The position numbers and the translations under genes were made by a program. From contig NZ_CP071796.1 in NCBI RefSeq assembly GCF_017498525.1, positions 1,488,001 through 1,552,000 on the forward strand: a DNA stretch of 64,000 nucleotides, written 5' to 3'. This document shows positions 2,699 through 26,205 of this stretch, one piece after another. The notes under the pieces are model-generated. The model did no database searches. It saw nothing but the letters and a program-made list of their open reading frames with translations, and was not told the DNA's origin. Source of the stretch: Ottowia testudinis. GTDB lineage: Bacteria > Pseudomonadota > Gammaproteobacteria > Burkholderiales > Burkholderiaceae_C. The stretch's first letter is position 1, and each line of letters opens with the position of its first letter.

Positions 2699-3121
2699 TT
2701 ATCGAGAGGACGACGGCACAACGTCAAGGCTTTGCAACAGAGCGACGTGATGGTTTTTGCGGTGCAGCCGCGCCACGTCCAAGGGCGTTCGACCGGCGTG
2801 ATCGGTGGCTTTGGTATCAGCACCTGAGGCAATCAGAATTTTCATGCAGGCCACATTGCCGTGGCTGGCAGCCCAATGCAGTGCGGTGTAACCGTGTTGT
2901 TCTTGGTAATCCGCTCGCGCGCCCAAGTCGATCAGAAGCTGAACCGCATCGGTCTGGCCCCATGCTGCGGCGCCGAACAAGGCGGCTTCGCCGTACGCAT
3001 CCATCGCGTTCACATCAGCCCCTTGCTGGATAAGGCGCCGGATCGCCGCCAAGTCACCCGCCCATGCTGCCATATGGAGTGGCGGCGCGTGATAGTCGGT
3101 ATCGGAGGGTGCGGTGGTCAT
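2699..3121 (-). CDS. Ankyrin-repeat protein
   Basis: Small soluble protein of about 140 aa made almost entirely of ankyrin repeats. Visible units are PPLHMAAWAGDLAAIRRLIQQGADVNA, AALFGAAAWGQTDAVQLLIDLGARADY, TALHWAASHGNVACMKILIASGADTKA and a final capping repeat TPLDVARLHRKN. No signal peptide or catalytic domain is seen, so a protein-binding role is likely. I start it at the ATG at 3121 (MTTAPSDTDY) because a longer reading frame would begin inside the upstream SWIM gene. It sits between the SWIM gene and the transporter ATPase as the last gene of the inserted cassette; a functional link to the cassette is inference from position only. Confidence 0.85.
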   Translation of the reverse strand: MTTAPSDTDYHAPPLHMAAWAGDLAAIRRLIQQGADVNAMDAYGEAALFGAAAWGQTDAVQLLIDLGARADYQEQHGYTALHWAASHGNVACMKILIASGADTKATDHAGRTPLDVARLHRKNHHVALLQSLDVVPSSSR

Positions 3122-3161
3122 CGCGGGCAGCAAAGTGGTCTGGGCAGAAGCTCGCGGCAGA

Positions 3162-3869
3162 TTACACCAGCGCATCCGCATGCAATTGCCGCAACCCGAT
3201 GAGGCCAGCAAAGCGCTCGGCTAAGGCAGTGCTGGCGTCGACGGCCAGCCCTTGCGCAGCGACGTCTCGCAGGTCTTGCGCCAGCTGCAAAAACTGGCCC
3301 GCCAGCGCCTGAAATCCCGCGTCGTGCAGGCTGCGTGCGCACTGCCGCGCGTCGGCCAGCCAGTGCGCGGGCAGGGCGCTGGCGCCGTGGTGCAGCGCGG
3401 CGGCGCACAGGCGGTGCTGGTGCAGCAGGTGCTGCTCCAGCGGCGATGCGGCGTGGATGTCGTCGGCGTGGCCCAGCGGCAGCGCGGCCAGCGCGGCGGC
3501 GGCAGGAGGGTGGGCGGGTGCGAAGTCGAGCGACCACAGCCGGTCGGCGGCGCAGCTCCAGGCGTGCAGCACGGGCGTGGGGCCCAGCCAGTCGAGCACG
3601 CCGCCCACGTGCTTCAGCGGGCCGTGCTGCCCCGACAAGGCGAGCGCCAGCGCGGCCAGCGCGTGGGGCGTGTGGGCGGCGTGGGTGCGGCGCACGATGA
3701 CGGCTTCGTCATCGCCATCAATGGCCAGAAACTGCAGCACCTGCTGGTTGGGGTCGTAAAAGGCGTCTTCGATGCGCGCTGGCGAAAACACCACGAAGCG
3801 CCCGGCCGCGTGGCGCGGCGCCACGCTGGGGTGCGGCTGCGCGGCGCGCGCCTGGCGCAGATTGGCCAT
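3162..3869 (-). CDS. C-terminal part of interrupted SWIM-protein gene
   Basis: About 235 codons continuing in the same strand and composition as the SWIM zinc-finger fragment upstream. I read it as the downstream part of the same gene, broken by the foreign-looking stretch at 3873-4077. It begins at an internal-looking MANLRQARAAQPHPSV and contains GRFVVFSPARIEDAFYDPNQQVLQFLAIDGDDEAVIVRRTH, then an Ala/His/Leu-rich helical tail. No catalytic motif is recognised. An independent small gene starting at 3869 is the alternative, but no ribosome-binding site is visible because the upstream bases are the suspected adapter. Confidence 0.6.
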   Translation of the reverse strand: MANLRQARAAQPHPSVAPRHAAGRFVVFSPARIEDAFYDPNQQVLQFLAIDGDDEAVIVRRTHAAHTPHALAALALALSGQHGPLKHVGGVLDWLGPTPVLHAWSCAADRLWSLDFAPAHPPAAAALAALPLGHADDIHAASPLEQHLLHQHRLCAAALHHGASALPAHWLADARQCARSLHDAGFQALAGQFLQLAQDLRDVAAQGLAVDASTALAERFAGLIGLRQLHADALV

Positions 3870-3872
3870 ACG

Positions 3873-4077
3873 CTGTCCCCTATACACATCTTACGCTCCC
3901 GAAGCTACCGACCGGCTACATCATCCTCCGCGCCTGTTCACCGAAGAACATCTCTATCATTCGCGCCCTGCAGCTACGGACACTTTCCTCTACATCCGCC
4001 CCTCCGCTTCCGCGCCCGCTCTCATACGCCTCTACCGACGCACACCTCGCCTTCGATTTCCACACATCGTTCAGCGG
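3873..4077. other. Probable sequencing-adapter/assembly artefact inside the SWIM gene
   Basis: On the plus strand it begins with CTGTCCCCTATACACATCT (3873-3891), matching the Tn5/Nextera mosaic end at 17 of 19 positions. The next bases (TACGCTCCCGAAGC) resemble the start of the Nextera read-1 adapter at 10 of 14 positions. The remaining roughly 180 bases are CT-rich, markedly lower in GC than the flanks, and code for nothing recognisable in any frame. On the minus strand an AATGATA, like the start of the Illumina P5 oligo, occurs upstream of the mosaic end. The mosaic end is a synthetic hybrid of natural Tn5 ends, so a real transposon is unlikely. True genomic sequence is probably missing here. 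Confidence 0.7.
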
Positions 4078-4125
4078 CCCCCGCCGCGCCGCTGGCCGGG
4101 GCGCCGGCCAGCGGCGCGGCGGGGG
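4078..4125. repeat. Perfect 20-bp inverted repeat (GC-only hairpin)
   Basis: The left arm at 4078-4097 and right arm at 4106-4125 are exact reverse complements, separated by the 8-base loop GGGGCGCC. The stem is nearly all G/C. In frame it encodes an Ala/Pro/Gly linker of the SWIM protein (PAPAAPLAGAPASGAAGA). It directly abuts the suspected adapter stretch. Either it is a real hairpin that blocked sequencing, or its distal arm is itself a fold-back artefact. Confidence 0.85.
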
Positions 4126-5305
4126 CGGGCTGCGGCACTTTCCAGTCGTGCAGCAAGGCCATGCGCGAGCCGGTGTCCAGATCGGCCAGCACCAGGCGCG
4201 TGCGGCGTTCGGCGCCGTCGCGCTCGGTGCGCGCGCCCAGGCACATCAGGCGCAGGCGGTCCAGCGGCACCTCGTGCGGCTGGCCGATGCCCAGCACCGC
4301 CTTGGCCTGGCCCGGCTGCGCGCCCAGGTGCAGCCGCAGCACCAGCTCGGTGGCCAGGTCCAGCCCGTCTTCGGCGCTGTAACGGGCGCTGCGCGCGGCA
4401 TAGGCAGCCTGCCATTGCTGTAAATCGGTGAGCGTCTGCACCAGCCATTCGGCACCCGCGCCGCTGGCGTCCGACACAGCCAGGTTGAAGGCCGGCGCGC
4501 ACGGCGCGGGCCCTTGCAGCACGCCGTGGCGCAGCAAGGCGGCCAGCACGGCGAGGTAGGGCGCGGCGGGCAGGCGCACGGCGGCATCGGCGCTGCCCAG
4601 CTGCACCGGCAACATGGGCGCGTGGGGCGCGCGTGCGTCAGCTTCGCGGAACGCCCACACGCCCAGGGCCACGTGTTCGCAGGCCGACTGCTGGACGCAG
4701 TCGCAGCGCGCGGCCTCGACGGCGGCGCCGGCCCAATAACGCACCGTGGCGGCGGGCAGGCGCGCGGTGTCGCACGGCTCGCCCGCGCCCCGGCGGTGGA
4801 TGTGCACCAGCAGCCCCGCCTGGCGTTGCTGCTCGGCGCGCGCCAGCAGCGCGGCGGGCAGCAGGGTGGACAGCGCGGCATCGCTGGCCAGGCCGGGGGA
4901 GGGTGGGTCGGTGGGCGCTGCTGTGGCTGGCGAGTTGGATGCGCCTGCGGGCGGCGCTGCGCTGGCGTCGGTTTTTTGGGTGTTTTCAGCCTCTTGTCCG
5001 CTACCGGAAAGCGCAAGCAGCTCTCGAAATTGTAGCGCCGCAATCAGCCGATGGCGGCAGATGGCGGTGGCCACGCACGAGCACTGCACCTGCGTGATCG
5101 GCTTGCCCTTGGGCCAGCGCGTGGTGATGCCGTCGCTGAAGGCGGCCACCAGCGTGTCGTCGTCCTCCAGCCGCAACTCGGGCACGTAGCCGGCCGCCTG
5201 CTCGCGCAGCGCGCGCTTGACCAGGCCGGCGTTGGCCAGCTGCGTCAGCGCCTCGGGGCTGAGATGTGCAAGGTCGGGGCGTAATTGGGCTTGAATGGTG
5301 ACCAT
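4078..5305 (-). CDS. SWIM zinc-finger protein (YehQ-like), N-terminal part
   Basis: N-terminal roughly 405 residues of a SWIM-domain protein, read from the ATG at 5305 (MVTIQAQLRPDLAHLSPEAL). The SWIM motif CxCx(n)CxH is CSCVATAICRH at about residues 75-85, following GKPITQVQ; SWIM domains bind zinc and usually nucleic acid or protein. A Pro/Ala-rich segment (about 105-145) precedes a second Cys-containing region (RCDCVQQSACEHVALG), which is a second SWIM-like CxC...CxH. The start is 4 bp from the stop of the zinc-ribbon membrane gene, so it belongs to the cassette. The frame runs on into suspected adapter sequence before stopping at 4022, so the real C-terminus lies in the 3162-3869 fragment. 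Confidence 0.82.
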
Positions 5306-5309
5306 GCCG

Positions 5310-5660
5310 TTACGGCTTCAAGAAATAACGCCGACCGTGAAATATTGCAATCAGCAGAAGCAAGTACGCAATCACCGAAATGGCGTACAACAGCCCTTGC
5401 ACATTCCCGAATAAGCCTTGTTTTACGAGGCTGGGTTCAAACTGAGCCCAGATAGCGATGGACGATGCCATGAACAGCGACGCGCTGGCGAAAAACAGCC
5501 CCCGCCGCTCCCATTTGGAGGTGCGCCGTTCAAGCGTGGCAAGACAGTATGGGCATTCGTAAGTGACCGATGTGCGCCAGAGGGTGATCTGTCGCAAGAC
5601 CACCTTGGCGCCTGTAACCGGCAACGGCCTGTTGCACTGAGGGCAGGGCTCTCTCCACAT
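5310..5660 (-). CDS. Small zinc-ribbon membrane protein
   Basis: 116-aa protein with two CxxC knuckles (CPQC at about 6-9 and CPYC at about 37-40), forming a probable zinc ribbon. These are followed by two transmembrane helices (about 55-75, FFASASLFMASSIAIWAQF; about 88-108, LLYAISVIAYLLLLIAIF) and a basic tail. It would place a cytoplasmic metal-bound module at the inner membrane. It is tightly packed between the VWA gene (9 bp gap) and the SWIM gene (4 bp gap), so it is probably an accessory of the cassette. I do not recognise the family; no enzymatic motif is seen. Confidence 0.75.
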   Translation of the reverse strand: MWREPCPQCNRPLPVTGAKVVLRQITLWRTSVTYECPYCLATLERRTSKWERRGLFFASASLFMASSIAIWAQFEPSLVKQGLFGNVQGLLYAISVIAYLLLLIAIFHGRRYFLKP

Positions 5661-5669
5661 TCGTTCACC

Positions 5670-6818
5670 TTATTCCAGCTTTTCCGCCAGCCACCCCGCC
5701 AGCTGCCCCGGCGTCATCGCCCCCACGTGCGCGCCCACCTCCACCAGCTTTCGCGCCAGCTCGCGGTCGTACGCGGGGTTGGCCTGCTCGTCCAGCGCGG
5801 CCAAGCCCAGCACCTGTGTGCCTTGGGCGACCAGGCTGCGCACCTGGTCGATCAGCACGTATTCGCTCATGCCTTCGTAGAAATCGCTGATCACGACCAC
5901 CATGGCGCGCTTGGGCACCTCGATGCGTTCGGCGGCGTACTGCACCGCCTTGCCGATGTAGGTGCCGCCGCCCAGTTGCACCTTCATCAAAGTCTCGACC
6001 GGGTCGTGCGCCTCGCCGGTCAGGTCGACGATCTCGGTGTCGAAGGCGATCAGGTGGGTTTGCACGCCGGGCAGGTGCCACAGGCAGGCGGCGGTGATGG
6101 CGGCGTGGATCACGCTAGGCACCATGCTGCCGCTTTGGTCGACCACCAGCAGGATTTGCCAGCGCTCCAGGTGCTTGCGCTGGTGGGTGTGGAACAGTGG
6201 CCGTTGCACGATCAGGCGGCGGCGCTCGGGGTCGTAAGTTTTAAGATTGCGGCGCAGCGTTTCGCGCGCGGCAAACTGGCTGGCGGCGCCCTGGTAGCTC
6301 AGTTCGGTGCGGCGCCGCGTGCCGCTGAAGGCGCGGCGCAGCTCCTTGGCCAGCTTGTCGATCAGCGCTTGCACCACCTTGGCCACCAGCTGGCGCGCCA
6401 TGGCCAGCACCTCGGGGTTCATCAAGTGCTTGGTGCGCATCACGGCGGCCAGCAGCGCGGGGTTGGGCGTGGCGCGTTGCAGCACCTCCACGTTGGTGAC
6501 CACCTCGTCGATGCCGTAGCGCTCGATCGCGTCGCGCTCCAGCCGCTCGATGGTCTCCTTGGGAAACAGCTCGTGGATCTGGTTGATCCACTCCGGCACG
6601 CTGAGCTGCGAGCCTTCGGTGCCGCCATGGCGGTCGAGCGTATCCGCCCCCTGCGCCGCATCACCGCGTCCATACAACCAGGCCAGCGCACGGTCCATCG
6701 CCATGCCGCTGGCCGAGCCGGCGCCCAAACCGCCTTGCAGGCTGGGCTGCGCCGCCTCACCCAGCAGCAGGCGCCAGCGCTCGGCGGGGGTGAGGTGGGG
6801 CGATGGCGGCGCGGTCAT
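5670..6818 (-). CDS. yehP: VWA-domain (MIDAS) protein, YehP-like
   Basis: 382-aa soluble protein. The C-terminal half is a von Willebrand factor A domain with a complete MIDAS metal site: DQSGSM (about residue 223), the Thr of GGGTYIG, and ISDFYEG. The helical N-terminal part contains WINQIHELFPKETIERLERDAIERYGID. VWA proteins of this type act with MoxR AAA+ ATPases as a chaperone-like pair, and a MoxR gene lies in the same gene train. Order and domain content match E. coli YehP of the yehI-L-M-P-Q cluster. The start at 6818 follows a 95-bp gap holding one copy of the dispersed repeat; 9 bp separate it from the next gene. Confidence 0.9.
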   Translation of the reverse strand: MTAPPSPHLTPAERWRLLLGEAAQPSLQGGLGAGSASGMAMDRALAWLYGRGDAAQGADTLDRHGGTEGSQLSVPEWINQIHELFPKETIERLERDAIERYGIDEVVTNVEVLQRATPNPALLAAVMRTKHLMNPEVLAMARQLVAKVVQALIDKLAKELRRAFSGTRRRTELSYQGAASQFAARETLRRNLKTYDPERRRLIVQRPLFHTHQRKHLERWQILLVVDQSGSMVPSVIHAAITAACLWHLPGVQTHLIAFDTEIVDLTGEAHDPVETLMKVQLGGGTYIGKAVQYAAERIEVPKRAMVVVISDFYEGMSEYVLIDQVRSLVAQGTQVLGLAALDEQANPAYDRELARKLVEVGAHVGAMTPGQLAGWLAEKLE

Positions 6819-6862
6819 GGGACGGTTTTCAGGTGTTTTGGGCCGTTGGTCGTGGTGGAATA

Positions 6863-6889
6863 AGCGCGGGCAGCTACAAAAAATATAGT
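6863..6889. repeat. AGCTAT dispersed repeat copy
   Basis: AAGCGCGGGCAGCTACAAAAAATATAG lies in the 95-bp gap between the DUF4132 gene and the VWA gene. It is the tail half of the recurring stem-loop repeat; the first GCGCTTG arm is not evident here. Confidence 0.7.
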
Positions 6890-6913
6890 GAACACGGGTG
6901 GTTGATGAGCGCC

Positions 6914-9900
6914 TTAAGCGCGCGCTAGCAGGCCCACGGTGCGTACCACCTCGCTGGCCAGGCGCGGGCTGAAATCGCCTTCGAGCCGCAAGGTCCGCAA
7001 GGTCTGTTGCGGGGTTTGCAGCGGGCTCATCATGTCAAAGCCATCGTCAAAATCCAGGTGAACGCGCGCGCCCGGCGCCGGTTGCCACGACAGGCCGAAC
7101 ACATGGGCGCCATCGCCTTCGCGGCGCCAGCCCTGCTGCATCAGGCCCAGCAGCGAGCCGGTGGCGATGGGGCGGCCCGGGGCCAACCCGTGGGCCGCCA
7201 GGCTGGCGGGGTCGCTGCCGACGTGAAACACTTCGCGGGCCAGCTGGGCAAAGGGCGGCACCAGCGCGTAATCGGCCCATACTTGGCCCCAAGCGGTGCG
7301 ATCGGCATCGCTCAGGTCGATGGGGTGCGCCAGCGCCAGGCGCGCGTCGTCTGGCAGCGCCACCGCCTCGTCTGCCGCGCCCACGGGGTGGAATTCTTCA
7401 GACAGTCGAAAAAGTTGGCCCGCGCCACCGCCCGCGGGCACCGTGGTCCACAGCAAGCGCCGGCCCAGTTCGCGCAGCAGCGGGTGGCGGGTGAACAGGC
7501 GGTCGAAGTCGGGCCGTTGCCAGCTGCGGCCCGTGATGAGCGCCTGTTCCAGCCGGCTGATTTGCTCGCTGGCCAGCGCCTTGGCGGCTTTTTTCAGCGC
7601 TTTCCAGCGCGCGGCATCATCGTCGGCGTGGTCGGTGGCGGCGGGTTTGGGCAGGTCCTTCAGGCGCGCGCCTTGCGCATCGCGCACGAACGGGGTCAGC
7701 GCTTCGTCAAAGTGCAGGCTGAAGCGGCGCTGGCCCAGGGTGAAGACGAAGTCTTCGGGCGAAGTGAGTCCCAGATCGGGCACCAGGCGGTCGGCCAGTT
7801 CATCGGGGCTCAGGCCCAGTTGGTTGGCCGCGCGCTGGATTTGCTCGCGCGCGGGGCCGCGCAGCGAGGGTTTGCCTTTTTCGGCGAAGCGGATCAGGGT
7901 GCGCAGGGCTTGTTCGCCGGCGGCATCGGCGCGCGCGCCCATCAGGCCCAGGGCGGCCAAGCCGTACTTGGCCAGGTTGAACTGGCCGGCGCTGGGCCAG
8001 TGGGCAATGTGCTCGCGCAGCATCTCGACCGCCGTCTCGTCGCCCAGATGGGCTTGCGCAAACACGATCCATTTGTGCTCGGGCGAAGCGCCAGCGGCGA
8101 TCCACGCGCGCCACAGCGCGCGACCCAGGCGCGCCAGCGATGCGGGCGTGAAGGCGGGCAGCACCTGCGCCAGGCCGGGCCACGGCGCATCGGGCTTGCC
8201 GAGCATCAGCATGGTGAGCAGGTCAGCCAGAGCGGTGTTTTCGATGCCCGCGTCAGCGCCTGACAGATGGGGCGGCGGCAGTTCGCTGGGCCCCATGAAC
8301 AGCGGCAACTCGGGCAGGCGCGTGGGCACCTTGAGCCAGGGTTGCGCGGCTTTTTCTTGCGCGGTGGGCTTTTTGGCGCGCCGCCAGGGTGGGTCGCGCA
8401 GCAGGGGCGGCAAGGCGGCGGCAATCTCGGCGGTGGCGCTGGGTGCGGCTGTGTCGGCCGCAGGCGCGGGCGCCACGGGTAGGCGGTCGAACCGTTCCAG
8501 CAGCGCGGCCGCTTCGGGGTCGGTGGTGGCGTCTTGCGCCAGGGCAGTGCGCAGCGGTGCGATCCAGTCGGGGTGTGCCGACAGGGCGCTGGCGATCAGG
8601 CGGTCGATGGTGGCGCGTGTGCCGTCGTTGTCGGGCACGTGGCCCCGGCTGCCCCCCGTGGCCGGGGCGTTGTGCGTGGGTTGCCAGGCCAGGGCATGGC
8701 GCAGCGTCAGCAGCGGCCAGCGTTCAAAGGCTTGTTGCCAGGCCTCTTGCACCATGGCTTCGCCGGGCACTTGCAGCAGCAGGTCGAGCAGGTGGGGATG
8801 GTGCAGGCGCTGGGCGACAAACAGGGCAGCCCGCGCTTCGCTGATGTATTGGCGAACCAGCGTGGGGTGGTTGCGGGACCAGGCCATCATGTGGCCTGTC
8901 AGGTTCTTGAGCACCAGTTCGATGGGGCCCGCACGCGCGCCCGCCAAGCGCTTCGCATCCACCTGTTTTGCATCGTTCTTGCTGCGCGCCGCCGTCATGC
9001 GCGCGTATTCTTGCTCGTCAGCCTCTGTCCAATGGAATTGGCCGTCGGGCTGGGCATGCAAATCGGGCAGCGGGGCCGAACCAGTCGTCGGCTGGGCACC
9101 TACCGCTGGCGCGGGCTGCGCAGGCGCGGCGACCGAGGGGGCGCGGGCGGGCAGGTTCTCGACCACACGGGCCAACTGCTTTTGCGCCGCTTCAGGCCAA
9201 TCGGTGCTGGCGGCTTGCAGGGGCGCAACCCAGTCGGCGTGTTCGTGCAGCGCGCGGCGCACCAGGGTCAGCACGGGGCTGTCGGGCAGCAGCTTGGGCA
9301 GGGCCAGGATGCGCGCCATCACCAGCGCCGGCCAGCGGTTCAACAGCTCGGCCAGGTAGGGCAACACCAAGGGGTCGGCGTGCAGCGGCAGCAACGCATC
9401 TACCAGACCGGCATGGTGGTAGTCCATGAACAGGGCCAGCAGCTTTTTGACCTTGGCATGAGATGACTTCGTCAGCAAAGGCGGGCTGTCGTCGAAGCCG
9501 CTGAATGAATTGACCTGATTGTCCAGGCGCTCTTTCAGCGCCGCAAAAGCGCCGTCGCCGCCGTGTTCGATAACGAACAGCAGCACCGGCAGGTCAAACG
9601 GCTCATCTTGTCGACGCGCCAAGCGCTCGGCGGCCAGCACCTCGTCGGGGCTCTGGGCGGCGTGCAGTTTCAACCAGGCAAACCAACTGGCGCCATAGCG
9701 GTCGGGCGGCAAGTAGCCATTGACCCAATCGGCCGCGGCTTGCAACGCGGGGTCAGCCTGGTAGGCCGCATCGTCCAGCGTGGCCAGCGCATGTTGCAGA
9801 GCGATGAGGCGCTGCGCGTGGACATAGGCCGCCCAGGTCACCCGCCCGATGGACGGTGGCGCGGCAGGCGTTTGCACCAAGTCTTGGAGCAATTGCACGG

Positions 9901-11623: not shown

Positions 11624-11655
11624 GGGATGCTTTCAAAGTGGAGGGTGGGTCAGGC

Positions 11656-14970: not shown

Positions 14971-15004
14971 GGTCAGGAGGCGGTTTAGAGATGATTTGGG
15001 CCGA

Positions 15005-15045
15005 TTGCGCTTGTCCAGCAAGCGCAAGCAGCTATAAAAAATAGA
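15005..15045. repeat. Stem-loop dispersed repeat, full copy
   Basis: A perfect 9-bp stem, TTGCGCTTG (15005-15013) and CAAGCGCAA (15019-15027), is followed by GCAGCTATAAAAAATAGAGC. It sits in the 79-bp gap between the DUF5682 gene and the DUF4132 gene. This is one of the best-formed copies in the window and defines the consensus. Confidence 0.85.
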
Positions 15046-15049
15046 GCAA

Positions 15050-17512: not shown

Positions 17513-17587
17513 CAAATGCTCTCAAAAAAAAACCTGACGGCCATTGTGAGACGGGCAAACGAGGGACTTTTCGTCATCACAGCCGCG

Positions 17588-18703
17588 TCATTGCGGCAAC
17601 GCATGCCGCGCCGCGTGGAAAGCGGCCCACGCATCGCCCGGCCGCTTGGCGGCCTTGTGCTCGATGTAGCGGCGCAGTTTCTTCAGATCGTCGGCGTTGT
17701 CCTTGGCGGCAGCGCCGGCCAGTGCCTCCACCAGGTCGGCGGGCGTGCCGGCATCGCCGCGCAGGTAGTAGCCGCGCAGCGCCACGGCGTGCGCCACGCT
17801 CACGGCCTCGGCGGTGCTGAGTACGCTGGACAGCTTGTCGGTGGCGCCGCCTTCGCGGTCAACGCCCTGGCGCAGGTCGCGAAAGGTGGTGACCAGCACT
17901 TCGAGCAGCGGTGCGCTGGGCTGCACCGGCACGCGGTCCTGCGCCAGCAGGCGCGCGACTTCGTTTTGCACCAAAGCCAGCTCTTGCGCGTAATCGGCAA
18001 TCGGCAGCACGGTTTCAAAGGCAAAGCGGCGCTTGAGCGCAGCGGACATTTCGTTCACCCCGCGGTCGCGCGTGTTGGCGGTGGCAATCAGGTTGAAGCC
18101 GTCTTGCGCGAACACGGTGCCGCCTTCGGGCAGCTCGGGCACCATCAGCAGGCGCTCCGACAAAATCGACAGCAGGCTGTCTTGCACTTCCGGCGGGCAG
18201 CGTGTGATTTCCTCAAACCGCACCACTTGCCCCGCCTGCATGGCGCGAAACAGGGGCGAGGGCACCAGCGCGCGCTGGCTGGGGCCGTCGTTCAGCAGCA
18301 GGGCGTAGTTCCAGCCGTATTTGATCTGGTCTTCGGTGGTGGCGGCGCTGCCTTGGATGGTGAGCGTGCTGGCACCGCTGACGGCGGCGGCCAGCAGCTC
18401 CGACAGCAGGCTCTTGGCCGTGCCCGGCTCGCCCACCAGCAGCAGCGCGCGCTGGCTGGCCAGGGTGACCAGGCAGCGCTCGATCAGGCTGGGCGCGCAG
18501 ACGATCTTGCGGCGCAATTCGCGCCCCGCCACCGTGCCGCCCAGAACAAAGTCGCGCACGGCGGGCATCGACAGCCGCCAGCCGGGCGGCTTGGGCGCCT
18601 GGTCGTGCGCGATCAGGTGTGCCAGCTCTTCGGCGTAAAGCAATTCGGCGGGCAAACGCTGGGCGGTGGGCAGCACTGGGGCGGGTTCGGCGCGTTTGAA
18701 CAT
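17588..18703 (-). CDS. yehL: MoxR-family AAA+ ATPase, YehL-like
   Basis: 371-aa cytoplasmic ATPase. Walker A is GEPGTAKS (91-98), Walker B VVRFEEI (about 160-166), sensor 1 LIATANTRDRG (about 205-215), and an arginine-finger region is KRRF (about 224-227). The C-terminal lid helices contain AHAVALRGYYLRG. MoxR ATPases form hexamers that work with VWA proteins in assembling or remodelling target complexes. The start at 18703 is 2 bp after the stop of the WGR-DUF4132 gene, so translation is probably coupled. Gene order with DUF4132 upstream and DUF5682 and VWA downstream matches the YehL branch. Confidence 0.93.
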   Translation of the reverse strand: MFKRAEPAPVLPTAQRLPAELLYAEELAHLIAHDQAPKPPGWRLSMPAVRDFVLGGTVAGRELRRKIVCAPSLIERCLVTLASQRALLLVGEPGTAKSLLSELLAAAVSGASTLTIQGSAATTEDQIKYGWNYALLLNDGPSQRALVPSPLFRAMQAGQVVRFEEITRCPPEVQDSLLSILSERLLMVPELPEGGTVFAQDGFNLIATANTRDRGVNEMSAALKRRFAFETVLPIADYAQELALVQNEVARLLAQDRVPVQPSAPLLEVLVTTFRDLRQGVDREGGATDKLSSVLSTAEAVSVAHAVALRGYYLRGDAGTPADLVEALAGAAAKDNADDLKKLRRYIEHKAAKRPGDAWAAFHAARHALPQ

Positions 18704-18705
18704 GT

Positions 18706-21700
18706 TCAGCTTTCTTGGTAAGGCGCCAGCAGATCCAGATCGCGCAGCATTTCGCTCGCGGCGATGGGGTTAAGTTGCGACAGCGGCTGCGTCTGGCTGT
18801 GGTCCCAAGTGACTTCGCTGCACAGCGTGACGGCCTTGACGTGCTGCTTGGGCTCGTAGCTCAGGTCGCCAATCACCAGCCCCGGCTCCAGCTCGGCCAC
18901 CAGGCACAGGACGTCGCCAGCGGGTTTGATGAACTCGCCCACCCAGCCGCCATCTTGTGCGTCACCGCGCTCCCAACCCCGGTTGATGAGGCCCATCAGG
19001 CTGCCGACTGAAACGGTTTTGCCGGCGAAGCGGGTGACGGCGTTGGCGGCCAGCTCGTGGGGCGTCAGTGCATAGGTCTCGCGTCCCAGTTGGCGAAAGG
19101 GTTGCAGGATTTCGTAGTCGGCCAGGATCTGGCCAAAGTCGGCCTGCTCATCGGCAGACATCTCCAGCACGTGGGCGATGCCGACGCTGGCGTCGGCGGC
19201 CAGCGTGTAGCCAGCGTCGTGCCGGTCGGCCAGCGTGAAGTCTTCCGCCACGCGAAAGGCTTCGGTGAAGATGCCGTCACGGTACACGGCCCACACCAGG
19301 CGTGTGGCCAGAAAGCGCATGACAGGGTGCTGCAAAAAGAAGAGCTTGAAGTCGTTGCTGGACCAGCGGCGTTGGCCCGTCATGGCCAGCTCCAGCCGCG
19401 TGACCTGCATGCTGGCAATGGCCTTGGCGTCTTTCTTCAGTTGCTTGTAGCGCGCGGTGGCGGCGTTGGCTTTCTCCGCGTCGTCGCTTTTGATGGGTTT
19501 GGGCAAATCCTTCAGCCGCGCGCCTTGCGCATCGCGCACGAAGGGTTTCAGGCTTTCGTCAAACGCCACGCTGAACTGGCGCGGGCCAAAGTCCAGCGCC
19601 AGCGCGCCGGATTCGTCCAGCCCCAGATCGGGCACCAGCCGGTCGGCCAATTCGTCGGTGCTCAGGCCGCGCGCGTCGGCAATGGCGGCAATCTTTTCGC
19701 GCGCTCTTTCTTGCAGACCTTTGAATTTGACCTTGTTGGCGATCGCGTTCAGGCTCATCAGCGCCAGGTCGGTGCCGATCAGCGTGAGCAGGTCCAGCCC
19801 CAGCACGGCGCGTGCGTGCGCGGCTTCGCCGGGCCATTCGCGGATCTTGGGCGTGAGGCCGCGCACGGTGTCGTTGTTGCCCAGGTGGCCCAGGGCGTGA
19901 AAGGCCCAGGCTTCCTTGGCTGGCGCGCCTGCGGCCATCCAGGCATCGAACAGGTCCCAGGAAAACCCGGCCAGCGACTCGAGCGTGCACACCTCGCGCA
20001 CGATGTCCAGGCCGGGGTAGGGCGCCTCCAGCTTGCTGATGGCCAGCATGGTGCCGATGTGCTCGGCGGCCGATACGGGCAGCGCGCCGCCGGTCTTGAG
20101 CTGCGGCCGCGTGAAAGTGGCAGGCGAGAAGAACGGCGGCAGCCTGGGCATCTTGGCCGGCAGCACGTTCAGCGGATCGGCGCTCTTGAGCGCGGTCAGC
20201 GCGGCCGGCATGTCAGGACAGGTGCTGGCGCCATATTCGGCGGCGATCTCGTCGATCAGCGCCTCGTGCCCGTGGCGCATCAGCCAGCGCAGGCCAAAGG
20301 CGCCGTTGTCTCGCGCCGCCTTGTCGGTGCCGAAGGCTTCTTGCAGGGCGACGATGGACGTGGTGCGCGGATGGCGGGCGATCCAATCCTGCGCGACAGC
20401 CTTGCTTTTCTTCACGTTGCGAAAGCTGTGCAACGCGATGCTGGCGATGCCGGTGGCATCGATGGCCGTGGCCAGGGGCAGGCCCCATTCGGGCCGGTTT
20501 TTGCAGTACGCCAGCAGGCCGGGCAGGGCGGCCTGGCCGTGCGTGGCCAATATCGATTGAATGATGGCGTCGGAATCGCCGTAATCCGTCCATGACCGCA
20601 CCGGGTACTCGTTCCATACACGCAAAGCCAAGCCGGGCGGCAGGTGGATGAGGTGATCGAAGGGGCGGCTCCACTGTTGCTCCAGCGTCAGGTCACTGGC
20701 CGAAACGGCCCTGCCGGCCAGGATTTCAGTGCGCGCCTGGTCGTTGATGCCCAATTGCCGGAACACCGCCGCTTCCATGTTGCCCAGGTTTTGGGCGAGT
20801 TTTTCCAGCCGATCTTGCAGCCAGCGTTCTGGTTTGGGCATCGGCCGGTAGTGGTCGATTTCGCTGTCCGTCCACTCCACGCGGGGTTCTACTGGCAGCG
20901 GAATCACCTCCAGCGTGGGCAAAGCCTGTGGCCGCAGCTTTTGCAGCCAAGGCGGGTTTTGCAGCAGCGCGGGCAGGGCGTCTACGCCAGCTTCCTTCAC
21001 ATCCAACGCCGCCAGCCTGGCCGTGAACGCCTGTGCCACGGCAGGTTCAAGCGCTGCCAAAGCTTGCGCCAGTGCCTGCGGATGCCGCGCGGCCAGGCGC
21101 AGCGTCCAGCCTTGCAGCATGCTCAGGCGGTGCGTGGCCAGGTGATCGATGGCGGTATACAGCGTGGCGGCCGGATGGCTTTCAGCCACCTTGTCGAGCA
21201 AGGCGCGGGTTTCCTTGGCGCCTTCCATCTGGCGCACCAGGGCGCCGATTTGCGCCGGGCACTGCACGGCCGCGATCCACTCCAGCATGCTTTCGGCGCT
21301 GCTCTTGTCACTGGCGTGCGACAGCAGCAGTTCCAACACCGGCATGGCGCGCACGCCATGCCGTGCCACCTGCAATTGCAGGGTGGGGTACAGGTAATAA
21401 AGGTAATGCTGGCTTTGATGGAGGTAGTCCACCATTTGCTGCGGCGACATGGCGCAGGTCAGCAGCCAGCACTGCTTGTCGCTCTTGGCCTGTGCCAGCG
21501 CCTCGTCCACCCAGGGTTGGTGGTGCGCAAAAAGAAAGGCACAGATAAAACCGGCCTCAGCCCTTGTCTGGCGCACGCGGGCAGCTATCAATAATGCAGC
21601 GTCGTGGTTTTCTTGCGAAGCTGCGGCAATGGCGTGCCGCAGCACTTCCAGCGCCGAGCGCACCTTGTGTTCATGCGGCACGGCTTGCGCCAGCGGCAGC

Positions 21701-22485
21701 AGTGTGTCCAGCATGAAGCCGATGCCGTGCAGCACCACGCCGGTCTTCACGATCCATTCGTGCGCCGCACTGCGCCAGTGCCAGTGGGCCAGGCACTGCG
21801 CGCAGGCTTCGCGCCAATAGGCCGGGTCGGGCTGGCTCAGCCGCTCACGCGTGAGGCAGGCGCGGCCACCCGCTTTGCCCCAGAACCGCCACTGCTGGCC
21901 AAGGGCTTGAGCCATGGCGTCCAGGGTGGGCTGGCTGCGCTGGTAGGTATCGTCTTCCAGCTCGGGAATCTTGTCCAGCAGCGCGGTGCTCGCTTCAAAC
22001 GGCGGCACCTGCTCACCGCGCAACACTGGCGCAATGGCCTTCTTCAAGATGGCATCGTCGATGCGCTCGGGTGGCCAATCCAGCGTGCTGGGATCCACGG
22101 GCGGTTGCGTGCCCGCGCCGGCGACAACCGAAGCCGGAGCGGCCACTGCCGTGGGCGGTGCCGCTGCCGCAGTCGGTTCAGTTGGCTTGACTGCTTCTGT
22201 TTTAGTAGCTGCTTGCGCTGATTCGGCGGGCGCTGAAGCCATTTTTGATGCCACTTTGGCCAGCGCGGCGTTGGCGGCCACGCTCACCTCGGCATAGCCC
22301 TTGCCCGTTTTTTCCTTGATCAGTTTGTCGCGTTCTTTCAGCGCCGCCGCCGCATCGGCAAAGGTCTTGGTCTGCGTCTGGCCGTTGGTGCCGATGCGGC
22401 CAAAGCGTATGGTGAGGTCGGCGCCCTCGGCCTGCACTTCCCAAAACTTGGCGGACTTGCCTTCGATGAGTTCGTAGCGTTGCAT
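18706..22485 (-). CDS. WGR-DUF4132 protein (YehI-like), copy 2
   Basis: 1259 aa. Residues 1-75 are a WGR domain (MQRYELIEGKSAKFWEVQ...IRFGRIGTNGQTQTKTF...KEKTGKGY), a fold that in PARP-type proteins contacts nucleic acid. A Pro/Ala/Thr linker follows (about 85-130), then a long HEAT-like helical body, then the C-terminal DUF4132 block (ARLKDLPKPIKSDD, LELAMTGQRRWSSNDFKLFFLQHPVMRFLATRLVW). It is a tandem duplicate of the upstream gene, with very similar C-terminal halves (for example HIGTMLAIS...LEAPY). The start is 15 bp after the upstream stop. A repeat copy at 21576-21600 encodes ALLIAARV inside the body. Confidence 0.9.
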   Translation of the reverse strand: MQRYELIEGKSAKFWEVQAEGADLTIRFGRIGTNGQTQTKTFADAAAALKERDKLIKEKTGKGYAEVSVAANAALAKVASKMASAPAESAQAATKTEAVKPTEPTAAAAPPTAVAAPASVVAGAGTQPPVDPSTLDWPPERIDDAILKKAIAPVLRGEQVPPFEASTALLDKIPELEDDTYQRSQPTLDAMAQALGQQWRFWGKAGGRACLTRERLSQPDPAYWREACAQCLAHWHWRSAAHEWIVKTGVVLHGIGFMLDTLLPLAQAVPHEHKVRSALEVLRHAIAAASQENHDAALLIAARVRQTRAEAGFICAFLFAHHQPWVDEALAQAKSDKQCWLLTCAMSPQQMVDYLHQSQHYLYYLYPTLQLQVARHGVRAMPVLELLLSHASDKSSAESMLEWIAAVQCPAQIGALVRQMEGAKETRALLDKVAESHPAATLYTAIDHLATHRLSMLQGWTLRLAARHPQALAQALAALEPAVAQAFTARLAALDVKEAGVDALPALLQNPPWLQKLRPQALPTLEVIPLPVEPRVEWTDSEIDHYRPMPKPERWLQDRLEKLAQNLGNMEAAVFRQLGINDQARTEILAGRAVSASDLTLEQQWSRPFDHLIHLPPGLALRVWNEYPVRSWTDYGDSDAIIQSILATHGQAALPGLLAYCKNRPEWGLPLATAIDATGIASIALHSFRNVKKSKAVAQDWIARHPRTTSIVALQEAFGTDKAARDNGAFGLRWLMRHGHEALIDEIAAEYGASTCPDMPAALTALKSADPLNVLPAKMPRLPPFFSPATFTRPQLKTGGALPVSAAEHIGTMLAISKLEAPYPGLDIVREVCTLESLAGFSWDLFDAWMAAGAPAKEAWAFHALGHLGNNDTVRGLTPKIREWPGEAAHARAVLGLDLLTLIGTDLALMSLNAIANKVKFKGLQERAREKIAAIADARGLSTDELADRLVPDLGLDESGALALDFGPRQFSVAFDESLKPFVRDAQGARLKDLPKPIKSDDAEKANAATARYKQLKKDAKAIASMQVTRLELAMTGQRRWSSNDFKLFFLQHPVMRFLATRLVWAVYRDGIFTEAFRVAEDFTLADRHDAGYTLAADASVGIAHVLEMSADEQADFGQILADYEILQPFRQLGRETYALTPHELAANAVTRFAGKTVSVGSLMGLINRGWERGDAQDGGWVGEFIKPAGDVLCLVAELEPGLVIGDLSYEPKQHVKAVTLCSEVTWDHSQTQPLSQLNPIAASEMLRDLDLLAPYQES
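21576..21600. repeat. Dispersed repeat copy inside a coding region
   Basis: GCGGGCAGCTATCAATAATGCAGC, the repeat tail, lies in frame inside the WGR-DUF4132 gene and encodes the peptide AALLIAAR on the minus strand. The paralogue upstream has AALAEAER at the aligned place, so the repeat has reshaped this segment. Confidence 0.6.
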
Positions 22486-22500
22486 GGTGGGTTTGCACTC

Positions 22501-25500
22501 TCAGGTGAAAGGGGCCATCAAATCAAGATCGCGCAGCATTTCGCTGGCGGCCACCGCGTTCAAACGAGTCAGGGGCTGCGGCTGATCACCGTTGCGCGTG
22601 GTCCGCAGCGTGAGCGTGGTCACGGTCTGTTTCGGTTCCGCGCTCAAATCACCCAGCACTAGGCCGGGGTCAAGGCGGGCAACGATCACGCCGTCAGTGC
22701 CCGGCACGAGCTTGACGAATTCGCCCAGCATGCCGCCACCATGCGCCTCGTCGCGCTCCCAGCCGCGGTGGATCAGGCCCATCAGGCTGCCGGCTTTCAC
22801 GGGCCGCTGGGCGAAGCGGGTGACGGCGTTGGCGGCGCGCTCGTCGTCGGTCAGCGCGTAGGTCTGGCGCGCCATCTGCGCAAAGGGCTGCATGATTTCG
22901 TAATCGGCCACGATCTGCGTGAAGGCGGCGCGCGTGTCGGCGGGCATGTCGAGCACGTGGGCGATGCCGACTGTGGCGTCGGGCGCCAGCGTATAAGCGT
23001 CGTCCTGCGCGTCGGCCAGCGTCCAGTCTTCGGCGATGCGAAAACCTTCTGCGAAGGTGCCGTCCTCATACACGCCCCACACCAGCCGCGCGGCCAAAAA
23101 GCGCATCACCGGGTGCTGCACAAAGAAGCGCTGAAAGTCGTTGCCGGACCAGCGGCGCTGGCGTGCCATGGCCAGCTCCAGCCGCGCGATTTGGGTGGAT
23201 GCAATGGCTTCGGCGTCTTTCTTCAGTTGTTTGAAGCGCGCGCTGGCGACAGGAGCGCGCTCGGGGTCGTCGGCCTTGGTCGGGCGCGGCAGGGTTTTCA
23301 GGCGCGCGCCGTCGCGCTCGCGCACATAGGGCAGCAGCGCTTCGTCAAAGGCGACGGTGAACTGGCGCGGGCCAAAGTCCAGCGTTTCGGCGCCGCGTTC
23401 GTTCAGGCCCAAATCGGGCACCAGGCGGTCGGCCAGGGCTTCGGGTGTGAGATCGCGCGCTTCGGCGATGGCGGCGATTTTTTCGCGTGCCCGCTCGCGG
23501 AAGGCGGGAAATTTCGACTTGTCGGCGATGGCGTTCAGGTTCATCAGCGCCAGGTCGGTGCCGATGAGGGCGAGCAAATCCAGCCCGGCTTCAGCGCGCT
23601 TTTTGGTGGCCGACTGGCCTGGCCACACGCGCACCTTGGGCGCCAGGCGGCGCACGGTCTCGTCATCGCCAAACCAGCCCAGCGCGTGAAAGGCCCAGTT
23701 CTGACGCGGCGCGGCACCGGCGGATTCCCAGGCTTCGAACACGTCCCACGCGAAGGCGGCCAGCGATTCGGGCGTGCAGGCCTGTCGCACGTGTTCCAGG
23801 CCCGCATACGGCGCTTCGAGCGTGCTGATGGCCAGCATGGTGCCGATGTGCTCCACCGCCGCCACGGGCAGTGCGCCTTGGCCGTTTTGCAAGATCGGCC
23901 GAGTGAAGGCTTCAGGCACGAAAAACCCCGGCAGCTTGGGCAACTTGGCCGGCAGCACGGCCAGCGGGTCAAGCGTTTTCAGCGCTTGCCAGGCGCCGGG
24001 CATGGGGCCGCCGTATTCAGCGGCAACTTGGTCGATCAGCGCCTCGTGGCAGTTTTTCATCAGCCCGCGCAGAGCGTTGGCACCGGCCTCGCGCGCCTTG
24101 GCGTCGGTGCCGAAGGCGTGGTGCAGGGCGACGGCAGCTGTGGTGCGAGGATGGCGCTGCACCCAGGCCTGCGCGGCGGCGCGCACGGCCTTGGCCTTAC
24201 TCAGCGATTGCAGCGCCAGAGCGGCCACACCGGCATCGTCCACGTCAATGGCAGCCAGCAAGCCTGATTCAGGCAGGACACGGATGTAGTTCAGCAAACC
24301 TGGCAGCGCGTCCACGCCGTAGCGCGCCAGCAGCACACGAACCACATGGGGATCATCGCTTACCCAGTCATCAGCGGGGTATTGGTTCCACAGGCGAATC
24401 GCCAGCGGCGAAGGCAGTGCCAGCAGGTGCCTGATCTGGCGCCACCCATAGCCGGAGGAGTCAATATCGCCTGGTTCCAGCGCCTTGCCGTCGATGATGG
24501 GCTGGCGCGATTCAGCCCGAATGCGCAGATGCTCCAGCACGGTGTGCGCAATGCCCTTGGGGCCTGATGGGTAGGAATAACCGCTTTTTTGCGTCGCGCG
24601 TTGGCGCATCGCTTCAGGCACATCGACGTGGACGGGTACGTTCAACGGGGGCCCACTCAAGGTGGGCAAGCTGACCGCGCGGGGCGGGTTCATCCACGGC
24701 GGCGTGCGCAGCAGATCGGGCAGCGCATCTGACGGCGCCTCGGCGTGCACCCGTTGCTGCAATACGGCGCGCCAGGCATCGGCCTGCGGCGCCGGCAGCG
24801 CGGCGAGCGATTGCGCCAGCGAATCCGCGTGGCGCGCACCCAGGCGCAGCGCCCAGCCCTGCAGGGCGGACGAGCGGGTGCGCAGCGCTTCGCCGATGGC
24901 GCTGTAGAGCGTGGCGGCGGGAAAGTCTTCAGCCACCTTGTCTAGCCGCGCGCGAACTTCCTTGCCATGGTTGAAATGCGCCACCAGCGTGCTGATTTGC
25001 GCCGGGTAGCGCATCGCTTGCACCCAGTCGAGCAGCGGACTGATCCAGCCTGGCTCGGTGCGGGCTATCAGCTCCGACAGCACGGCGAGCGTGCCTTCGC
25101 CATGCAGCCTGGCCATCAGGTACAGGCTGGGCGCTGGCTGGCGCAAGTGCTTCATGTGCCGCACGAAAGCCAGCGCTTGATCGATCGACATGACACAGGC
25201 TTCCAGCGAGTCCATGTCGCTGCGATGCCGGATGTGGGTCATGGCCTCGCTGAACCACGCCGTGTGATGTGGAAACAGGTAGCTGGCGATGATCAAGCTG
25301 GAAGGCGCCAGCAGGCGCTGCCGCTCAGCCTCGGCCAGGGCGGCATCGTGGGCTTGCGGCGAGGCGGCTGCAATCGCGTGGCGCAAGGCCTGCAACGCCA
25401 TGCCCATCGCGCGGTAGGGGTTGTCCACGGCGCGGTGCAGCGTCATGAGTACGTCGACCATGAAGGCGACGCCGCGCCAGTGCACGCCGGCCTGTACGAT

Positions 25501-26205
25501 CCAGCGCGGCGCTCCGCCATAGGTCCAGTTGGGCATCGTGAGGCATTGCGCACAGATTTGCAGCCATGCGGCGCGGTCGGCGGCGCTGAGCTTGTCTGCG
25601 GCCAGATGCTGCGTGAGCGAATCGCCCCAGCGCTGCCATGTTTCACCGCAGGCGGCGGCCATCGCCGCGAGATCCCGATCATCGGCGGGGGAGGGGTTGC
25701 CGACAAACAACGGATGGTCAGACGGCAGATCAGATGTAACTTCGAACGGCGGCACATGAATGCCACGCACCACCGGCATGCCGACATTGAGCGGCAGCAG
25801 GCTTTCATCCAGGCCGCCGCTCGGCCAGGGCAGGTCAGCGGGTGAAAGTGAAGCCGCGACGGGCACGCCAGTCGCTGGGACGATGGCAGAGGGTGGTGTG
25901 AGTAACGTAGGGTGCGGCGGATCAGAGGCGACCACGGCGTCTTGGGCGGGGGCTTGGGCAGGCAAAGACGCGGGCGCGCGGGGCGTTTGCGCGGCAGTAG
26001 CGCACCACTCAACATATCCTTTGCCCGTCTTCTCGCGGATCAACTTCTGCTGCTCCGCCATCGCCGCTTCAGCCGTGGCAAAGGTCTTGGTCTTGACCTG
26101 TCCCTGCGTGCCGATACGGCCAAAGCGCACGGTCAATGCGTTGCCTTCGGTCTGCACCTCCCAGAATTTGGCCGATGTGCCCTCGATCAACTCAAAGCGC
26201 TGCAT
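22501..26205 (-). CDS. WGR-DUF4132 protein (YehI-like), copy 1
   Basis: 1234 aa, first gene of the inserted cassette. It begins with a WGR domain (MQRFELIEGTSAKFWEVQ, VRFGRIGTQGQVKTKTF, REKTGKGYVEW), then a Pro/Ala linker, a long helical body and the C-terminal DUF4132 block (ARLKTLPRPTKADD, LELAMARQRRWSGNDFQRFFVQHPVMRFLAARLVWG). I start it at the ATG at 26205, which has a GGGAGGGG ribosome-binding site 5 bases upstream; an in-frame extension to 26280 would overlap permease C. The start is 28 bp after the permease C stop. E. coli YehI has the same WGR plus DUF4132 plan. Confidence 0.9.
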   Translation of the reverse strand: MQRFELIEGTSAKFWEVQTEGNALTVRFGRIGTQGQVKTKTFATAEAAMAEQQKLIREKTGKGYVEWCATAAQTPRAPASLPAQAPAQDAVVASDPPHPTLLTPPSAIVPATGVPVAASLSPADLPWPSGGLDESLLPLNVGMPVVRGIHVPPFEVTSDLPSDHPLFVGNPSPADDRDLAAMAAACGETWQRWGDSLTQHLAADKLSAADRAAWLQICAQCLTMPNWTYGGAPRWIVQAGVHWRGVAFMVDVLMTLHRAVDNPYRAMGMALQALRHAIAAASPQAHDAALAEAERQRLLAPSSLIIASYLFPHHTAWFSEAMTHIRHRSDMDSLEACVMSIDQALAFVRHMKHLRQPAPSLYLMARLHGEGTLAVLSELIARTEPGWISPLLDWVQAMRYPAQISTLVAHFNHGKEVRARLDKVAEDFPAATLYSAIGEALRTRSSALQGWALRLGARHADSLAQSLAALPAPQADAWRAVLQQRVHAEAPSDALPDLLRTPPWMNPPRAVSLPTLSGPPLNVPVHVDVPEAMRQRATQKSGYSYPSGPKGIAHTVLEHLRIRAESRQPIIDGKALEPGDIDSSGYGWRQIRHLLALPSPLAIRLWNQYPADDWVSDDPHVVRVLLARYGVDALPGLLNYIRVLPESGLLAAIDVDDAGVAALALQSLSKAKAVRAAAQAWVQRHPRTTAAVALHHAFGTDAKAREAGANALRGLMKNCHEALIDQVAAEYGGPMPGAWQALKTLDPLAVLPAKLPKLPGFFVPEAFTRPILQNGQGALPVAAVEHIGTMLAISTLEAPYAGLEHVRQACTPESLAAFAWDVFEAWESAGAAPRQNWAFHALGWFGDDETVRRLAPKVRVWPGQSATKKRAEAGLDLLALIGTDLALMNLNAIADKSKFPAFRERAREKIAAIAEARDLTPEALADRLVPDLGLNERGAETLDFGPRQFTVAFDEALLPYVRERDGARLKTLPRPTKADDPERAPVASARFKQLKKDAEAIASTQIARLELAMARQRRWSGNDFQRFFVQHPVMRFLAARLVWGVYEDGTFAEGFRIAEDWTLADAQDDAYTLAPDATVGIAHVLDMPADTRAAFTQIVADYEIMQPFAQMARQTYALTDDERAANAVTRFAQRPVKAGSLMGLIHRGWERDEAHGGGMLGEFVKLVPGTDGVIVARLDPGLVLGDLSAEPKQTVTTLTLRTTRNGDQPQPLTRLNAVAASEMLRDLDLMAPFT

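Follow-up and report, generated by a model that had tools for sequence, protein, structure and literature searches.

An expanded yeh-type gene cluster of Ottowia testudinis: a candidate MoxR-VWA system with a putative TIKI/TraB-like hydrolase and variable DUF4132 scaffolds

Introduction

What does a large gene cluster do when its E. coli counterpart, the yeh set, is itself functionally uncharacterised? The question is raised by a locus in the single-contig 4.32-Mb genome of Ottowia testudinis. The stretch analysed here, positions 1,488,001-1,552,000 of that genome (64,000 nucleotides, hereafter the window), contains a cluster that runs from 26205 down to 2699 and lies on the minus strand throughout. 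A preliminary description of the window compared the cluster with the yeh genes, proposed that a MoxR ATPase and a von Willebrand factor A (VWA) protein act on large DUF4132 proteins together with a possible DUF5682 hydrolase, and leaned towards a conflict system. No functional study of yeh genes, DUF5682 or DUF4132 was found in the open-access literature, a search that mostly leaves subscription papers outside. We consider that the MoxR-VWA pair would gate a TIKI/TraB-like hydrolase, DUF5682, on variable, damage-sensing DUF4132 scaffolds, and give this reading a probability of roughly 0.4.

Gene content and relationship to the yeh set

The features of the cluster, in the order in which they are read, are the following.

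22501..26205, minus strand: WGR-DUF4132 paralogue a (Pfam WGR and DUF4132; best start ATG 26205)
18706..22485, minus strand: WGR-DUF4132 paralogue b (Pfam; AlphaFold2 model; fold search)
17588..18703, minus strand: YehL-type MoxR AAA+ ATPase (Pfam AAA_5; 59% to YehL; motifs)
15050..17515, minus strand: DUF5682 (YehM) protein (Pfam; structure model; motifs)
11656..15027, minus strand: DUF4132 paralogue c, without WGR (Pfam; tree)
6914..11623, minus strand: DUF4132 paralogue d, 1569 aa, without WGR (Pfam; tree)
5670..6818, minus strand: YehP-type VWA (CoxE family) protein (Pfam; 53% to YehP; MIDAS motif)
5310..5660, minus strand: small two-CxxC (zinc-ribbon) protein, probable passenger (motifs; at 0 of 80 loci)
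3162..5305, minus strand: YehQ-type SWIM gene, broken in the assembly (N part 4022-5305, C part 3162-3887)
3869..4093, no strand: probable sequencing or assembly artefact interrupting the SWIM gene (225 nt unmatched in a relative; adapter-like 19-mer)
2699..3121, minus strand: ankyrin-repeat protein, 140 aa, probable passenger (Pfam; at 0 of 80 loci)

Pfam recognised DUF4132 in all four giant proteins (E-values 4e-39 to 7e-54), WGR in two of them (6e-19 and 2e-19), DUF5682 (4e-89), AAA_5 in the MoxR protein (2e-38), VWA_CoxE (3e-50) and the ankyrin repeats (5e-38). The gene content first described, with two WGR-DUF4132 genes, a YehL-type MoxR, DUF5682, two further DUF4132 genes, VWA and a YehQ-like SWIM gene, is thus borne out by Pfam and BLASTP, as is the count of four DUF4132 proteins, which are the only DUF4132 matches in the whole genome. 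For paralogue a, an in-frame ATG further upstream, at 26280, would overlap dppC.

In BLASTP comparisons with E. coli K-12 the MoxR protein is 59% identical to YehL over 357 aa, the DUF5682 protein 36% to YehM, the VWA protein 53% to YehP and the N part of the SWIM protein 32% to YehQ over 402 aa. The MoxR subfamily had been set beforehand as a check on the comparison, and the protein proves to be of the YehL type; it has GEPGTAKS at 91, FEE at 163-165 and KRRF at 224, so that Walker A, Walker B and the arginine finger are present, and it stays below the Pfam cut-off for the bpMoxR domain (20.6 against 27 bits). The VWA protein has the metal ion-dependent adhesion site (MIDAS) motif DQSGSM and scores 16.6 bits with the ViaA equivalog, for which the cut-off is 500.

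The E. coli set yehH(molR)-yehI-yehK-yehL-yehM-yehP-yehQ comprises the same gene families in the same core order, DUF4132-MoxR-DUF5682-VWA-SWIM; the K-12 annotation treats yehH, the first of its DUF4132 genes, as a pseudogene. The window cluster differs in that another two DUF4132 genes separate DUF5682 from VWA, in having no match to yehK and in its position inside the dpp operon. The cluster is a variant of a known set, an orthologue, with extra scaffold genes, of yehH-yehI-yehL-yehM-yehP-yehQ.

The cluster is plausibly one transcription unit, judging from gene spacing. Gaps of 2-95 bp had been reported and follow from the arithmetic of the open reading frame (ORF) list, except around the 225-nt stretch in the SWIM gene. 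A hairpin with a T-run (15064-15044, minus strand) falls exactly at the junction of DUF5682 and DUF4132 c; overall, such hairpins are no commoner than in shuffles.

Occurrence and conservation

Homologues of the cluster genes do co-occur in other genomes, as had been expected. The locus survey covered the best 80 of at least 576 YehL-type MoxR relatives (at least 590 pattern matches, named genomes), which by record titles come from Pseudomonadota, Actinomycetota and Myxococcota. DUF5682 is found at all 80 of these loci, DUF4132 at 76, VWA at 73, SWIM at 72 and WGR at 36, and MoxR, DUF5682, VWA and SWIM stand together at 72; the other eight loci are read as cut by contig ends or by the 10-kb flank. 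Same-strand DUF4132 ORFs within 10 kb, split ORFs included, number none at 5 loci, one at 37, two at 23, three at 11, four at 2 and five at 2, two or more thus occurring at 38 of 80. By these counts the four complete copies of the window are at the top of the range and not unique in kind.

Of 5426 complete E. coli genomes, 5162 have yehL-yehQ at a single position with a coverage of at least 80%, so that about 95% carry the core of the set, and 5177 have yehI; for molR (yehH) the number at this coverage is 4058, and for the entire yehI-yehQ stretch, again at a single position, 3976. The distribution is patchy in the genus and order to which the window belongs. In the genus, 3 of 29 genomes, its own included, have a DUF5682 match, and in the order 13 of 399 do (12 of them above the cut-off). 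Ten of the 399 have DUF4132, five of them with DUF5682 and five without, and in all five having both a DUF4132 gene adjoins the DUF5682 cluster.

Two cluster types can be delineated, DUF4132-MoxR-DUF5682-VWA-SWIM and SWIM-DUF5691-MoxR-DUF5682-VWA. The 14 regions compared, which leave out the matches in genomes G186 and G430 (the latter below the cut-off), comprise six of the first type, among which one has no SWIM gene that could be recognised, and eight of the second. The DUF5691 type, found in other Burkholderiales and in Deinococcus taeanensis, has MoxR, a DUF5682 with the same motifs, VWA and SWIM in common with the window; DUF5691 replaces DUF4132, and none of the eight loci has DUF4132 nearby. 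Homology of DUF5691 to the DUF4132 solenoid or to the DUF5682 tail was considered and rejected, there being no profile match (P 0.075 and 0.67). In the cluster of congener G008 (L027:15319-17832, L028) a 2-oxoglutarate-Fe(II) oxygenase-like ORF follows MoxR, and about 4.9 kb of other ORFs precede VWA.

DUF5682 as a candidate TIKI/TraB-like hydrolase

The model of the DUF5682 protein (predicted local distance difference test, pLDDT, 87.3) has an alpha/beta domain at residues 1-235 and a HEAT-like helical part at about 420-790. The latter aligns with HEAT proteins, e.g. symplekin (Z 9.0, 246 residues, root-mean-square deviation (rmsd) 5.9), which may reflect just the common arrangement of helical repeats. 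The conserved motifs lie in the N-terminal domain. R10, H11, S13, P14, E35, G36, R195, E196, M199, G220, G221 and H223 are invariant in 58 DUF5682 sequences, and G8 nearly so; the DUF5682 alignments were drawn from 77 candidate stretches, those of WGR-DUF4132 from 47. The resulting motifs, G8-x-x-H11, E35, R195-E196-x-x-M199 and G220-x-x-H223, amount to two GX2H motifs, a Glu and RExxM, and they are also kept in the DUF5691-type branch as GxRH, E-(G/M)-P, RExxM and GxxH. Two GX2H motifs and a conserved Glu are what we take to be the TIKI/TraB signature; the TraB/GumN profile built here has its motifs in the same order (FGTIHV, ALE, RNxxM, VGAxHL).

Fold comparisons give a mixed picture. Of the viral models, the one that DUF5682 matches best belongs to the TraB family (Foldseek; probability 1.00, template modelling score 0.51 by target, E 0.014). 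In the VIA search with residues 1-235 the top three rows are chains of Tetrahymena complex IV (Z 10.1-10.3), the best having Z 10.3 and rmsd 4.7 over 196 aligned residues. A figure legend on this complex names a TraB-family protein among the accessory subunits (PMC10060162); we infer that the matched chain is this subunit, although a PDB sequence search with the TraB profile missed the chain.

Profile-profile comparison gave P 7.6e-4 for DUF5682 against TraB and 3.8e-3 against ChaN, with six controls at 0.16-0.81; the TraB and ChaN profiles do not find each other (P 0.64). In this comparison 18 of 26 TraB and 11 of 16 ChaN matches were readable in frame; a TraB row below the threshold and two partial ChaN rows did not enter it. 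Searched against 2173 sequences, the DUF5682 profile has a TraB protein (E 0.011) and a ChaN protein (E 0.14) at the head of its ranking, most other TraB proteins falling beyond rank 100, and the ChaN profile places 42 of 66 DUF5682 sequences in its top 100 of 2210. Like the TIKI/TraB/ChaN/Ere superfamily, DUF5682 has two GX2H motifs, a conserved Glu and an R..M motif, and its predicted alpha/beta fold may be similar; it differs by its HEAT-like C-terminal half, its constant MoxR-VWA neighbourhood and the lack of the first Glu of the 2His/2Glu set. From motifs and model, the N-terminal domain is probably a TIKI/TraB-like fold with a GX2H pair forming a candidate catalytic site, and the protein may be an active hydrolase, a suggestion of the preliminary description that has gained support.

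DUF4132 proteins as candidate recognition scaffolds

The predicted structure of paralogue b (AlphaFold2, residues 1-1195, pLDDT 85.6) consists of a WGR domain (1-73), a helical solenoid (about 170-950) and a C-terminal mixed DUF4132 domain (about 960-1190). The WGR domain aligns with 2ra8 at Z 12.9 (72 residues, rmsd 1.6). Fold searches with DUF4132 return many eukaryotic HEAT proteins at VIA Z 7-11, which we read as a predicted helical solenoid and nothing narrower; a family's absence from these lists does not speak against it.

In the tree of 144 C-terminal DUF4132 regions paralogues a and b are sisters (support 0.78). Paralogue c groups with copies from G008, G022 and L053 (1.0), which are likewise downstream of DUF5682, and d groups with an L053 copy (1.0) and then with YehI (0.90). 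Because of these placements c and d are regarded as older lineages and not as products of recent duplication. Locus L054, which is the G008 record, was left out of the tree, of the pairwise identities and of the flanking-ORF set.

DUF4132 is also the most divergent component. From 122 close locus pairs the window pairs and 60 sampled ones were taken, of which 56 were in the identity range and 49 complete; the pairs share loci, and the window's own pair, having no SWIM value, is outside the 49. Median identities are 88% for MoxR, 81 for VWA, 73 for DUF5682, 63 for SWIM and 55 for DUF4132. DUF4132 is less conserved than MoxR, VWA and DUF5682 in all 49 pairs and less than SWIM in 41, its last 300 residues having a median of 67% against 50% for the remainder. 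Such divergence fits a variable recognition scaffold and makes DUF4132 a candidate sensor.

Insertion site in the dpp operon

The site of insertion is the junction of dppC and dppD. Immediately upstream of the cluster come dppB/dppC and immediately downstream dppD/dppF, and dppC and dppD are intact and on the same strand as the cluster. Fifteen congeners (loci L133-L147) have no DUF5682 match; among them the distance between dppC and dppD is within about 200 bp by BLAST ends in four, about 0.9 kb in four and 5.85 kb, with other ORFs in place of the cluster, in one; dppD is outside the stretch in one, and dpp genes were not found near pth in five. Congener G008 carries the cluster with dppB and dppC just upstream, dppD being outside the fetched stretch, and congener G022 carries it with dppD and dppF just downstream, dppC being at the end of another contig, so that the three genus carriers have the dpp site in common on at least one side. 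Given these differing arrangements, the cluster occupies a junction that is variable within the genus and may be an insertion hotspot.

At this same junction G017 (L138, 4200-10000) has a different insert of 5.8 kb, whose ORFs by eye are response regulator-like and membrane sensor-like.

Links to DNA damage

In E. coli a LexA-type box, CTGGATAAAATTACAG, starts 25 bp before yehF. One published list places molR among LexA-regulated genes (PMC11039860), and a table of SOS gene expression in another has yehF values from -0.12 up to 1.14 (PMC11002266). Genes of Deinococcus radiodurans with WGR and DUF4132 are described as strongly upregulated upon DdrO depletion (PMC8533742). The window cluster differs from the yeh set in having no such box in front of it, and its link to DNA damage is therefore borrowed from relatives. 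SOS regulation as a general feature was rejected, as LexA-type boxes over the 80 loci were, in a rough count by eye, no denser than background.

Proposed mechanism and alternative explanations

The YehL-type MoxR ring and its VWA partner would form an ATP-driven remodelling pair acting on DUF5682 and DUF4132. DUF5682, the putative TIKI/TraB-like hydrolase under its control, would dock through its HEAT-like parts onto the large DUF4132 solenoids, and these, some tipped with WGR, would be the fast-diverging recognition part, with the SWIM protein assisting. The target of a solenoid might be damaged or abnormal nucleic acid, or a complex formed on it; upon the encounter MoxR-VWA would alter the assembly and either let the hydrolase act or reset it. 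DUF4132 and WGR would sense the nucleic acid or the damage; contact of WGR or SWIM with nucleic acid is suggested by the domain names. Several DUF4132 genes would provide one core with several recognition subunits, the extra paralogues thereby widening recognition.

A number of results weigh against this reading. For DUF5682, the HHalign probabilities are low (10% and 4%), Foldseek finds no match at E<=0.001 in the PDB or the viral library, and a VIA Z of 10 is only moderately above the typical best Z of 7-8 quoted by the tool. The best match of the ChaN profile is the VWA protein of the window, and the TraB profile is weaker, ranking 18 of 66 DUF5682 sequences high and having two decoy ORFs as its first matches; part of the signal may therefore be generic to alpha/beta folds. 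DUF5682 has GIRH or GVRH at the first His and so lacks the Glu that the Ere/RRSP-type E-x-H places two residues ahead of it; a 2His/2Glu site of which E-x-H is part is described for VvRRSP (PMC6254334). As to DUF4132, rapid divergence may be usual for helical solenoids of this size whether or not they act as sensors, and the comparison was made between best-matching copies whose orthology is unproven. On the side of damage, there is no LexA-type box near 26205, the start of the cluster, no enrichment of such boxes by eye near DUF4132 or cluster genes at the 80 loci (a rough count without formal test), and no RDRM-like site within 3 mismatches in the DUF5691-type D. taeanensis.

Systems with a MoxR and vWA core and further large partners are known as MoxR-vWA ternary conflict systems (PMC7159879), although with other third components (VMAP, iSTAND, FtsH, beta-propeller), and the main text of that paper yielded no Yeh, WGR, SWIM, MolR or DUF4132. 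By analogy the cluster could serve in phage defence or another biological conflict, with DUF4132 diversifying as the sensor and DUF5682 supplying the effector. Such a system would agree with the parallels just named, the patchiness in genus and order, the shared dpp site where G017 has another insert, the fast divergence of DUF4132 and the fact that just 3976 E. coli genomes have the whole yehI-yehQ in one place. It fits poorly with the near-universal presence of yehL-yehQ and yehI in that species and with the surveys of mobile and defence genes: a match was obtained in one of 50,697 phage records, itself unverified, and in 40 of 72,556 plasmid records, several of them chromosome-sized; none of 146 pattern matches in IMG/VR was confirmed, using two short peptide patterns that could miss relatives; and PADLOC returned 0 families at E<=0.01 for six cluster proteins, a scan outside which lay DUF4132 a and d, the C part of SWIM, the ankyrin and the zinc-ribbon proteins. 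In the flanks (123 of 127 listed ORFs, from 211 candidates) PADLOC gave 17 matches to 8 models (5 to mad3, 3 each to GlgB-like and mad8, 2 to AriA, and 1 to each of the other four). We regard these matches as generic, although there was no control set to compare them with, and a defence-island signal was rejected on that basis; transporters, dehydrogenase-type enzymes and malic enzyme are commonest among the 25 Pfam families listed for them, and the flanks look ordinary. The cluster is not a typical mobile defence gene, phage defence is disfavoured by these surveys taken together, and the leaning of the preliminary description towards conflict is weakened; we regard a conflict system as unlikely. 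Unlikely, too, is an assembly or cofactor-insertion chaperone of the CoxD-CoxE or NorQ-NorD kind, in which MoxR-VWA would mature a target enzyme encoded elsewhere and DUF4132 and DUF5682 would be its scaffolds. MoxR proteins are thought, according to PMC3893208, to be active in the maturation of specific complexes, the VWA domain is of the CoxE type, and MolR owes its name to a molybdate phenotype, to go by the title of a cited paper; yet no candidate target recurs among the 25 families of the flanks, the Deinococcus study saw no differential expression of molybdate genes (PMC8533742), and a conserved hydrolase-like core component would be unexpected in a chaperone.

Two further explanations start from neighbouring genes. 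RNA repair or surveillance is brought to mind by the DUF5691-type locus of G147 (L029/L030, G147:C23), which by eye adjoins rtcR-like and rtcA-like ORFs, and by two flanking ORFs matching RlaP; those two are among 123, and the homology cluster that includes the rtcR-like ORF covers just three of the eight DUF5691-type loci: its member adjoins the genes in G147, is about 9.5 kb away in G223, and in G314 is adjacent without looking like rtcR. At none of the seven loci other than G147 was an RtcR-like ORF seen next to the cluster. This explanation appears quite improbable. A functional extension of the dpp transporter comes up because the cluster sits in the dpp operon, on the same strand between intact dppC and dppD, at a site common to the genus carriers on at least one side. 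Against it, dppB/dppC matches occur at only one of the 80 loci, that of G008 (L054), six others showing merely 27-32% matches to the dppD/dppF ATPases, and dppC and dppD are neighbours in congeners without the cluster; the idea has very little to recommend it.

A gated DUF5682 hydrolase on DUF4132 scaffolds would, if it is real, be carried by nearly every E. coli strain. DUF5682 offers a candidate catalytic site and DUF4132 a candidate sensor, which makes the function of an uncharacterised core operon testable in that species. More tentatively still, the yeh operon and its relative might form a further class of MoxR-VWA machines, in which an AAA+ ring and a VWA adaptor gate a previously unrecognised TIKI/TraB-type hydrolase on exchangeable HEAT-like solenoids, some of them WGR-tipped, that sense damaged nucleic acid or complexes.

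One of the phage records, L196 (MT835988), is an unverified 'Bacteriophage sp.' entry in which a relative of MoxR is followed by large ORFs (748 and 436 aa); it is possibly a bacterial contig.

The broken SWIM gene and the passenger genes

The assignment of a SWIM protein stands in so far as it has two CxC-x5-CxH motifs and the match to YehQ; Pfam did not find the SWIM domain in the N-part ORF, and the gene is split in two ORFs. Both parts match one 713-aa ORF of congener G022, residues 1-391 at 79% to 4022-5305 and residues 474-712 at 74% to 3162-3887. Between two BLASTN matches of 82-83% identity lie 225 nt (3869-4093) with no similarity to the 226 nt that they replace in G022. This stretch contains the Nextera-type 19-mer AGATGTGTATAGGGGACAG at 3873-3891 (2 mismatches; none expected in shuffles), the comparison being with what we take to be the Nextera mosaic end sequence. 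To judge from the letters, the 225 nt are probably a sequencing or assembly artefact in a single-contig genome and not biology. A second unmatched stretch, of 69 nt and without adapter-like sign, lies towards the 3' end of this gene.

The zinc-ribbon and ankyrin proteins, originally described as added components, were rejected as parts of the system, being present at 0 of the 80 loci (tblastn, E<=1e-8). The former (5310..5660) contains two CxxC motifs, and towards its C terminus there are stretches that look hydrophobic by eye. In G022 the place of the zinc-ribbon gene, flanked by VWA and SWIM, is taken by a SUKH-1-like protein (L025:7610-8113; E 7e-4, below the cut-off). This position is possibly a slot for changing small genes.

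Apart from the cluster, the window encodes at 46019-47581 (minus strand) a fusion of Ada Zn-binding, AraC-type helix-turn-helix and AlkA domains.

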